A stretch of DNA of 64,000 bases from an uncultured Latescibacterota bacterium (lineage in GTDB: Bacteria; Latescibacterota; UBA2968): positions 3,418,522 through 3,482,521 of the forward strand of contig OX638329.1 of NCBI GenBank assembly GCA_951812755.1, in the 5' to 3' direction. A program made the translations under genes and the position numbers. Shown here piece after piece: positions 3,851-37,076 of this stretch (the stretch's first letter is position 1; every line of letters starts with the position of its first letter). Under the pieces are notes generated by a model. It made no database searches. It was not told the origin of the DNA and worked only from the letters and a program-made list of their open reading frames with translations.

Positions 3851-3923
3851 TGCCCCTGGCAGGACTCGAACCTGCGACCAACGGATTAGGAATCCGCTAC
3901 TCTATCCTCTGAGCTACAGGGGC
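3851..3923 (-). tRNA. tRNA-Arg, anticodon CCT
   Basis: A full 73-nt cloverleaf is readable on the minus strand. The acceptor stem is GCCCCTG paired with CAGGGGC plus discriminator A. The D arm is GCTC..GAGT-like, the anticodon arm CGGAT-TCCTAAT-CCG carries CCT (reads AGG), and the T arm contains GGTTCGAGTCC. The CCA end is not encoded. It starts five bases after the apt stop codon on the same strand and may be processed from that transcript. Confidence 0.96.
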
Positions 3924-34027: not shown

Positions 34028-34861
34028 TTATTCCGCTTCCAGAACTTCCGGATCCAGTTGATACCAGAATACCTCACCGGATTCAACGAGATCCTGTATC
34101 CGGTCATCTCGGCGCAAGCCCACAACAGCGGAAAATGCCTGCTTACCGGTAAACCTGGTCAGGAACTCGGCATTTCGGAGGGCGCGGCTGGTGTCCCGCC
34201 CATTGGCGGTGAAGGAGATTTCCACGGCAATGTAGCAGGGATTACCGTCCTGGTCGGTGGCCTCTATAATCAGATCGGCGCGACGGAAGCTTCTCAACTC
34301 GTTTGTAGAAATGCTCGATGTGTCTGAGCGGGCAATCAGTGCTCCAAGATCATCCTGCGTGAGGGTCTTCGTGCGTTGAAGGCCTATGTCCTCGGCAATG
34401 ATGGATGCCTCGCGCAGAGCGGCATCCCGAGCGTGGGACCCTTTGAGCGGACCGAGGTCATCTTGAATGGACTTCATCCTGATTTTGAGCGTGCCGACAT
34501 CCACCTTAAGCGTGCCAACATCTCCCTTGAGGATACCAACATCATCCTGGATAGACGCCACTCTATTTTCGAGCGCGTCAAATCGACGGTTCGTAGCTTC
34601 GACAAATCTATTCATCTCAGCGACAAAGTTATTCATCTCTGCAACGAAGCTGTTCATCTCTGCAACGAAGCTGTTCATCTCTGCAACAAAGCTGTTCATT
34701 TCTGCGACAAAGCTGTTCATCTCTGCGACAAACTGGGTGAACTTTTCGGGCAGTTCAATCAGTTCCCGCGTCAGCAGCCGGGCACGCAGGGCATCCGTCC
34801 ACTCAGGATGGTCGTCCAGGATGCGAATGAGGTCTTCTATTGTATGAATCGTGGTGGTCAC
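34028..34861 (-). CDS. Heptad-repeat coiled-coil protein with probable nuclease-like C-terminal domain
   Basis: A 277-residue protein. After an N-terminal helical part (1-42) come six tandem heptads FVAEMNS (about 43-85), then a second coiled-coil of DVGTLKV-type heptads (about 100-140) and a globular C-terminus (about 165-277). The C-terminus has RRADLIIEATDQDGNPCYIAVEISFT, an E-x-K-like arrangement (D-x9-E-V/I-S) reminiscent of PD-(D/E)XK proteins of unknown role that carry similar coils. The catalytic lysine is not obvious, so nuclease activity is inference. The start is GTG at 34861 behind GAGGA. The heptads are encoded by near-identical 21-bp units. Confidence 0.75.
   Translation of the reverse strand: MTTTIHTIEDLIRILDDHPEWTDALRARLLTRELIELPEKFTQFVAEMNSFVAEMNSFVAEMNSFVAEMNSFVAEMNNFVAEMNRFVEATNRRFDALENRVASIQDDVGILKGDVGTLKVDVGTLKIRMKSIQDDLGPLKGSHARDAALREASIIAEDIGLQRTKTLTQDDLGALIARSDTSSISTNELRSFRRADLIIEATDQDGNPCYIAVEISFTANGRDTSRALRNAEFLTRFTGKQAFSAVVGLRRDDRIQDLVESGEVFWYQLDPEVLEAE
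34611..34736. repeat. 21-bp in-frame tandem repeat (six copies)
   Basis: Six copies of a unit like GTTCATCTCTGCAACGAAGCT (plus strand) with few differences; the third and fourth are identical. Each encodes one coiled-coil heptad, so copy number can change without breaking the frame. Confidence 0.85.
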
Positions 34862-35948: not shown

Positions 35949-36044
35949 TGCAGAAAAAATTGCAGCTTGATTTTGTGGGTGTGAAACTTTACATTTTGAA
36001 ACAGAGCGAGTTACGGCTGCCAAACCGTTCCCGTCTCTATATTG

Positions 36045-36093
36045 CGGCGGGAGGGCCTACAAGGTCTGCTAACCCGATATAGGCCCTTCGCCG
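36045..36093. other. Bulged 13-bp hairpin in the gene-poor gap
   Basis: CGGCG-GG-AGGGCCTA (36045-36059) pairs with TAGGCCCT-T-CGCCG (36080-36093) around a 20-base loop. No T run follows on either strand, so it is not an ordinary terminator. It lies between the candidate RNA terminator and the small genes at 35.8-35.9 kb and could be part of their leader. Confidence 0.45.
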
Positions 36094-36163
36094 TTCCTAC
36101 AGACATAACATCTACCTGGGGTATTTTTTACATTAGATTATCCAAACGTTTGTCTCATTTCTC

Positions 36164-36202
36164 AAAAAAAATACCGGGTGCCATAATACCTATGGCACCC
36201 GG
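36164..36202 (-). terminator. Intrinsic terminator of the candidate RNA
   Basis: CCGGGTGCCATA (36174-36185) and TATGGCACCCGG (36191-36202) form a perfect 12-bp stem with a 5-base loop. On the minus strand it is followed by TATTTTTTTT. Confidence 0.88.
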
Positions 36203-36366
36203 TTGTTTCACATAATATGCCGGTCAAATGCCACAGGCCGCGTACTCATCTATAGCCAAGATGTAGCTCGGTCCTTTCGGACACCGAAACCATAGCATTT
36301 AACCGGCTGGAAGTTGCTCAAATTTGCTTCGGCCTCTTCCAGCCGTTAACTATAAATGAATACGCC
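36166..36366 (-). ncRNA. Candidate structured non-coding RNA, about 200 nt
   Basis: No protein frame explains this stretch, yet it has every part of an RNA gene on the minus strand. A promoter (36372-36399) would start transcription at about 36366. A 16-bp closing stem joins GCGTATTCATTTATAG with CTATAGATGAGTACGC; its two imperfect pairs are G-U wobbles only on the minus strand and would be C-A mismatches on plus. Inside lie a bulged 14-bp hairpin (GGCTGGAAG with CTTCCAGCC and flanking TTAAC/GTTAA) and a third stem TTCGG-TG-TCC capped by a GAAA tetraloop. This makes a three-way junction. A strong terminator ends it. I do not recognise the class; 6S RNA size fits but its conserved elements are not evident, and no known riboswitch boxes are seen. 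Confidence 0.6.
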
Positions 36367-36371
36367 CCATT

Positions 36372-36399
36372 AAAATACGACATTAACAAGCATTGGCAA
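36372..36399 (-). promoter_or_regulatory. Promoter of the candidate RNA
   Basis: On minus, TTGCCA (36394-36399), a 16-base spacer and TATTTT (36372-36377), about six bases before the first G of the closing stem. Confidence 0.55.
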
Positions 36400-36506: not shown

Positions 36507-37076
36507 TCACACCACCGATTCCAACAGCCCCTGACTGCGGCGGTCCAGTGCCAGTATATCGGGCACCTCAAAGCGATTGTTATCCACATCAAAAATCATC
36601 AACCGCGTGTCCCCCAACCACTGTGCGTCTTCAGCCACGGACTTGGCTACAAAATCGCGTCTGCCCCGGTCGGTATCGACAGTCCAGTACGTCACCCCGT
36701 ATTCATTTTGCAACGCGATGATCTTCTGGATCTCCGCCGTCAAATACCGGTTGTCCAGTTCCTCATACACCAGGGTCTGGCTCTCTTCTGACAAATCGGA
36801 CAGGTCCTTGATCATGCAGATCGCTTCGTCCTTGATATCCAGAATGCAAAAATAGCGATCCGGTTCCGTCAAAGGCGCTGCCCGCACCACTTTCACGCGA
36901 GTATAGGACCGATCCCCTTCAATCGTCATCCGCAAAACCCACTGTGGCTCCTTAAACAAGCGGATCTTACCCGGATCAACCGATTCGGGATGCACCATCT
37001 CAATTGGTATCGGCTTCCACTCCTCTGTATTTTCTTCAATCTCTTCCACTTCCATCTCAAGCATATCCGTAGCCAT
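36507..37076 (-). CDS. DUF1854 family protein
   Basis: A 189-residue soluble protein. DUF1854 features are the LFKEPQWVLRMTIEGDRSYTRVKVVRAAPLTEPDRYFCILD region, the DELGxI-like middle (KDEAICMIKDLSDLSEESQTLVYEELDNRYL) and the WTVDTDRGRRDFVAKS segment. The family has no known activity; NCBI naming ties it to cyanophycin metabolism because it occurs with special ABC transporters near cyanophycin genes. Exactly such transporters are the next two genes upstream on this strand. The start is ATG at 37076 behind TTGGAGATTTTG. The acidic N-terminus (EMEVEEIEENTEE) is unusual. Separated from the ABC gene by about 150 bases of repeats. Confidence 0.85.
   Translation of the reverse strand: MATDMLEMEVEEIEENTEEWKPIPIEMVHPESVDPGKIRLFKEPQWVLRMTIEGDRSYTRVKVVRAAPLTEPDRYFCILDIKDEAICMIKDLSDLSEESQTLVYEELDNRYLTAEIQKIIALQNEYGVTYWTVDTDRGRRDFVAKSVAEDAQWLGDTRLMIFDVDNNRFEVPDILALDRRSQGLLESVV

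Follow-up and report, generated by a model that had tools for sequence, protein, structure and literature searches.

A probable divergent RNA of the C4/c4-2 antisense kind with two mutually exclusive helices in a Latescibacterota genus

Within a 64,000-nucleotide stretch of an uncultured Latescibacterota genome (here called the window), a small RNA gene made up of a promoter, an RNA of ~200 nt and a terminator was identified as probably (we estimate roughly 60%) a strongly divergent form of the C4/c4-2 antisense RNA kind. The gene lies on the minus strand at 36399..36163, where promoter hexamers are followed by a closing helix, a bulged hairpin, a GAAA hairpin and a terminator. The RNA can be folded around either of two long helices, P1 and P4, which exclude one another and which both look preserved by evolution when homologous copies are compared.

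The RNA gene and its copies

A sequence-only reading of the window had proposed a gene for a structured RNA, with a promoter and a terminator of its own, and this proposal is supported by homologues that preserve the stems through compensatory changes. The promoter described there, TTGCCA-16-TATTTT (36399..36372, minus strand), was present, and promoter-like hexamers were equally placed in most homologues (for example, TTGCAA-17-TATTAT in loci L002 and L007). Judged by the position of the hexamers across copies, the first helix strand starts a few nucleotides from the expected transcription start. The closing stem between 36350-36365 and 36240-36255 was recovered with 16 of 16 positions paired, and its two non-Watson-Crick pairs are indeed U-G on the minus strand, which makes them A-C on the plus strand. 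Both the bulged hairpin (GGCUGGAAG/CUUCCAGCC) and the hairpin UCC-GAAA-GGA appeared in predicted folds, as had been described, and the perfect terminator with its T run was found at 36203..36163. In four other copies a second perfect terminator comes after this hairpin (P5), which there is without the T run. The promoter-like site located directly past the terminator in the window probably serves the next transcription unit.

Table 1. Features of the RNA locus, with positions in the window
Feature	Position	Strand	Remarks
-35 hexamer TTGCCA	36394..36399	(-)	Comparable hexamer at equal position in other copies
-10 hexamer TATTTT	36372..36377	(-)	TATTAT, TACTAT or TATAAT in other copies
Segment a, leader strand of helix P1	36345..36365	(-)	Best pairing with own a' in every copy; few nt from expected transcription start; positional equivalent of a1b1 in c4-2
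Bulged hairpin P2, CGGCUGGAAG...CUUCCAGCCG	36304..36345	(-)	Predicted folds; overlap of 3' strand with helix P4
Segment b, 5' strand of helix P4, GCCGGUUAAAUGC	36295..36307	(-)	Compensatory changes in G008a and G008c
UAUGG, 5' half of 11-nt tetraloop-receptor-like internal loop	36290..36294	(-)	Common to c4-2
Hairpin P3 with GAAA tetraloop	36269..36286	(-)	
Hairpin 2 of c4-2-like fold, loop around UUGGCUAU	36245..36266	(-)	Alternative to P1
Segment a', 3' strand of helix P1	36240..36258	(-)	Counterpart of the a'b' antisense stretch in c4-2
Inner stem and CCUGUG (3' half of receptor-like loop)	36232..36239	(-)	
Segment b', 3' strand of helix P4, GCAUUUGACCGGC	36219..36231	(-)	
Intrinsic terminator P5, ACCGGGTGCCATA/TATGGCACCCGGT and T8	36163..36203	(-)	13-bp perfect stem
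Second promoter-like site TTGAGA-17-GATAAT	36137..36165	(-)	Directly past terminator
Element E2, separate ~140-nt conserved structured leader	35961..36100	(-)	After the RNA in 7 of 8 intact loci

The MFE of the minus-strand RNA was -100.2 kcal/mol, compared with -65.2 +/- 4.1 kcal/mol in 200 dinucleotide shuffles (z -8.57), while that of the plus strand was weaker (-77.9 kcal/mol). At gathering scores no Rfam family, 6S included, matched the RNA locus; the sole Rfam RNA in the window at this level was a tRNA (3851-3923, minus strand). A short UUG...UAG frame through the RNA, followed by eye, was rejected as coding, since variable columns were distributed 9/8/9 by codon position and early stops occurred in copies G000b and G008c; neither the conserved open frame nor the third-position bias of a leader-peptide attenuator or coding RNA was found. 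On this comparative evidence, the locus is a genuine small RNA gene, conserved in evolution, with a predicted transcript of ~200 nt.

The window sits in a single-contig genome of 6.53 Mb, which carries a second copy of the RNA. Sequence and covariance-model searches detected eight intact copies, two in each of four of the eleven species of one Latescibacterota genus, and no further one in the 64 genomes of the phylum, so that the tests of conservation and coevolution rest on eight sequences from a single genus. Decayed or interrupted copies were present in genomes G002 and G008. One copy is split between hairpin 2 and b' by an insert of ~140 bp (L009:1564-1706; G008:C1 near 2816231), which recurs with 95% identity at L005:2711-2834 and looks like a small mobile element. 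Exact-pattern matches in Aminicenantes, Acidiferrobacteraceae, Zixibacteria and Bacteroidetes fell in coding-like sequence and were dismissed as chance, and a search by DNA similarity for a phage or plasmid origin gave no match.

Two mutually exclusive helices

The three-way junction proposed in the sequence-only reading stands as one conserved fold of this RNA and falls as its sole fold, since a second, exclusive fold is also conserved. The helix that had been missed pairs 36295-36307 (together with 36290-36294 and the inner stem) with 36219-36239 and excludes the closing stem. The segments are ordered a, b, a', b', the last two being 0-3 nt apart: a and a' form P1 (~16-20 bp), while P4 pairs b, located inside P1, with b', located outside it, the helices spanning 16-20 bp.

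While the sequence of P1 varies among copies, each segment a paired best with its own a', a result that was repeated in a second test. The mean energy of own pairing was -28.0 kcal/mol, compared with -14.9 kcal/mol for the partners of other copies, and the two of 40,320 permutations that were equally good arose because two copies share one a'. For P4, 95.4-99% of cells were paired across the eight copies, and compensatory changes from G-C to A-U and from U-A to C-G were observed in G008a and G008c. The covariation score of P4 was 0.193, against 0.137 +/- 0.016 in shuffled controls (0/500) and at most 0.080 in slid controls.

P1 and P4 cannot coexist, because only 0-3 nt separate a' from b'; a pseudoknot holding both helices simultaneously was ruled out geometrically, as this gap would have to cross a helix of ~20 bp. 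Because P1 coevolves, P4 has compensatory changes and P4 excludes P1, the RNA would be bistable. The P1 fold is more stable than the P4 fold by about 6-15 kcal/mol, tertiary contacts not counted. The two copies in this genome cross-paired poorly (-10.6 and -10.8 kcal/mol, compared with -27.2 and -25.8 kcal/mol for own pairing), and each would therefore have its own specificity.

Relation to c4-2 and C4 RNAs

The earlier statement that the RNA matches no known class did not hold. At relaxed thresholds its core matched c4-2 RNA (RF02944, clan CL00128), a family reportedly defined by Weinberg in 2017, at one common place in five of seven loci with 23-33 bits; the best match reached 33.3 bits (E 0.0013), every score lying below the gathering score of 41 bits. 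A search of 60 genomes with RF02944 at E<=0.1 returned six copies of this RNA and one other match, in G011, which was judged spurious on reading by eye, the motif being absent. The RF02944 match corresponds to the P4 fold, in which every element of the c4-2 core was found: an outer stem, the UAUGG/CCU receptor-like internal loop, a short inner stem, the GAAA hairpin and a second hairpin. The canonical 11-nt receptor reads CCUAAG/UAUGG (PMC11381326). In the reciprocal direction, a covariance model made from the eight Latescibacterota copies alone found all three true c4-2 RNAs on viral contigs and, at the exact site with E<=0.011, 19 of 31 further c4-2 loci (30 from Bacteroidota genomes and one from a viral contig), with no other match in 106 kb. 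No match was obtained with this model in seven control loci, two of which bear the same UAUGG...GAAA string.

Genuine c4-2 loci were read for loop coevolution in L094-L123 (Bacteroidota genomes), L049 and L050. In these loci, the hairpin-2 loop and the UAGGA that follows it complement the leader directly after the promoter and also the start region of the next gene. On both sides own pairing beat swapped partners (0/5000 permutations each), indicating locus-by-locus coevolution. Phage P1/P7 C4 RNA has the layout a1b1 / a'b' / a2b2, and the true c4-2 loci read likewise. Several further observations were made in these loci. In L094-L123 the product of the gene with the coevolving start region is a conserved protein of 77 aa, for which Pfam gave no match. 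An ATG closes the upstream leader of c4-2 (L094, L096, L104, L113 and others); its frame continues across the c4-2 RNA, often including a common ...WWRYWKQPQR... stretch, and is a possible leader peptide overlapping the structured RNA. On the reverse strand of viral contig L050, c4-2 precedes an ORF of 99 aa and then a Rha/Ant-type antirepressor, an order that mirrors c4-icd-ant in the operon of phage P1.

The Latescibacterota RNA shares with c4-2 a 4-bp inner stem, a promoter immediately upstream, several copies per genome, and a second hairpin whose loop and 3' side complement the leader that opens the transcript. This complementarity to the leader upstream of the core, which is the a1b1 pairing of c4-2, takes the form of P1 and is stretched to about 20 bp, compared with ~13 bp in c4-2. 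In true c4-2 loci the leader recurs downstream, where the next gene starts (a2b2); no such repeat was found for the Latescibacterota RNA. Its outer stem is longer and does not run into a U run to serve as the terminator; instead, a separate terminator hairpin comes after P4. It also differs in having the extra hairpin P2 between leader and core, and in its Latescibacterota host, with no recognised phage genes nearby.

None of seven loci matched the C4 antisense RNA family itself (RF01695) at E<=5. In phages P1 and P7 the loops of C4 block ribosome-binding sites, and Acinetobacter baumannii has multi-copy chromosomal C4-derived sRNAs (PMC5320573); the same article, citing Hartmann 1995, states that RNase P trims the P1/P7 C4 precursor, which places the cut at the 5' end of the core stem. 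A three-stem core with a tetraloop, a variable antisense loop, a precursor with extra 5' sequence and the existence of multi-copy chromosomal versions are common to these RNAs and to the one described here, which, unlike phage C4, adjoins no antirepressor operon. These comparisons support its assignment to the c4-2/C4 antisense RNA kind, as a divergent variant in a non-phage context, and we consider this class fairly secure. The case for homology to c4-2 is built on fold, motifs and layout, and convergence upon the GAAA/receptor architecture could yield a similar picture.

Neighbourhood, mechanism and rival explanations

On one side the neighbour of the RNA is a DUF1854 gene (36507-37073), preceded by two genes read from sequence as ABC transporters; the product of the gene on the other side is acidic, contains Cys and starts with a hydrophobic N-terminal stretch. 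A short way downstream of the locus, a protein with a tandem SFVAEMN heptad-like repeat (a coding repeat) is encoded at 34028-34861 (minus strand). E2 is a two-hairpin RNA-like element with compensatory changes, often present in several copies per genome, for which no Rfam match was found. It occurs in ~31 places in nine of the eleven congeners, mostly without the RNA (also at L002:1840-1985), and stands before genes for mostly secreted or outer-membrane proteins; in G006, two E2 elements flank one gene region. The genes past RNA and E2 differ between loci, and include ankyrin-repeat, outer-membrane barrel, FGE-sulfatase/dockerin-like and FtsK/SpoIIIE-linked genes.

Scans of 1.5 kb downstream, with segment-wise permutation tests, found no segment with a preference for its own a' over those of other copies. 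Genome searches for a trans target with 13-mers and 15-mers gave nothing beyond chance, complementarity of 6-8 bp lying below their reach, and in the 13-mer search the common loop target had no genomic copy apart from the RNA itself. For the target and the switch we infer a course in which the transcript would begin with segment a and carry a c4-2-like core composed of P4, the UAUGG/CCUGUG loop, the GAAA hairpin and hairpin 2 with a'. P1 would form first during transcription and hide the antisense stretch a', and the core would be freed by strand exchange through b' or by removal of the leader, the latter modelled on RNase P cleavage of the phage C4 precursor. Exposed a' would then block translation of a target mRNA by pairing with its start region.

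A cis-regulatory unit is the main rival to this model, because E2 follows the RNA in seven of the eight intact loci, before differing genes. Promoter, RNA, terminator(s), E2 and gene would here make up one unit with a bistable leader, similar to an attenuator or riboswitch, in which the choice between P1 and P4 would set read-through into the downstream gene. The loci are homologous from the promoter through E2, and the genes beyond are unrelated; this fits such an arrangement, as do the terminators located between RNA and gene. However, neither fold contains an anti-terminator, and switching between terminator and anti-terminator through b was rejected, as the covariation partner of b is b' rather than the terminator arm. 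The second perfect terminator in the four copies whose P5 is without a T run, the promoter-like site right past the terminator in the window, and the occurrence of E2 mostly without the RNA also argue against a common leader, which we regard as unlikely.

The patchy distribution among congeners (4 of 11), the decayed or interrupted copies in G002 and G008 and the target searches that found none would suit the remains of a C4-type immunity module, mobile or from a phage, that was copied along with segmental duplications and has lost its function. Yet P1 and P4 remain paired despite sequence divergence, and promoter and terminator are kept, so that selection until recently would be required; we give this reading a low probability. 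Similarly improbable is a structured RNA unrelated to C4/c4-2 that has its GAAA hairpin and receptor-like loop by chance and may bind a protein (in the manner of 6S or CsrB) or a ligand. While every RF02944 match fell under the cut-off and a downstream antisense target was not found, the reciprocal model matches, the negative controls and the shared anatomy of leader complementarity are hard to obtain by chance, and neither 6S nor another Rfam family appeared at gathering scores.

An RNA of the C4/c4-2 antisense kind thus remains our preferred reading. A more far-reaching version of it, possible though doubtful, is a self-switching antisense RNA, in which a core of C4 type, joined to a leader complementary to it, would use two coevolving, exclusive helices as on and off states. 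Such an RNA would have multiplied in one Latescibacterota genus with insulated specificities, before different genes that are partly of host-interaction type (ankyrin-repeat, outer-membrane and secreted proteins).

The coevolving complementarity between loop and start codon in c4-2 offers a concrete mechanism that is testable in Bacteroidota. With two exclusive helices that each show compensatory evolution, the Latescibacterota RNA likewise makes RNA switching directly testable from sequence. If the assignment is right, the C4/c4-2 antisense RNA kind would extend to an uncultured phylum, in a version whose own leader would hold the antisense stretch in a long helix, conserved in the face of a competing helix.
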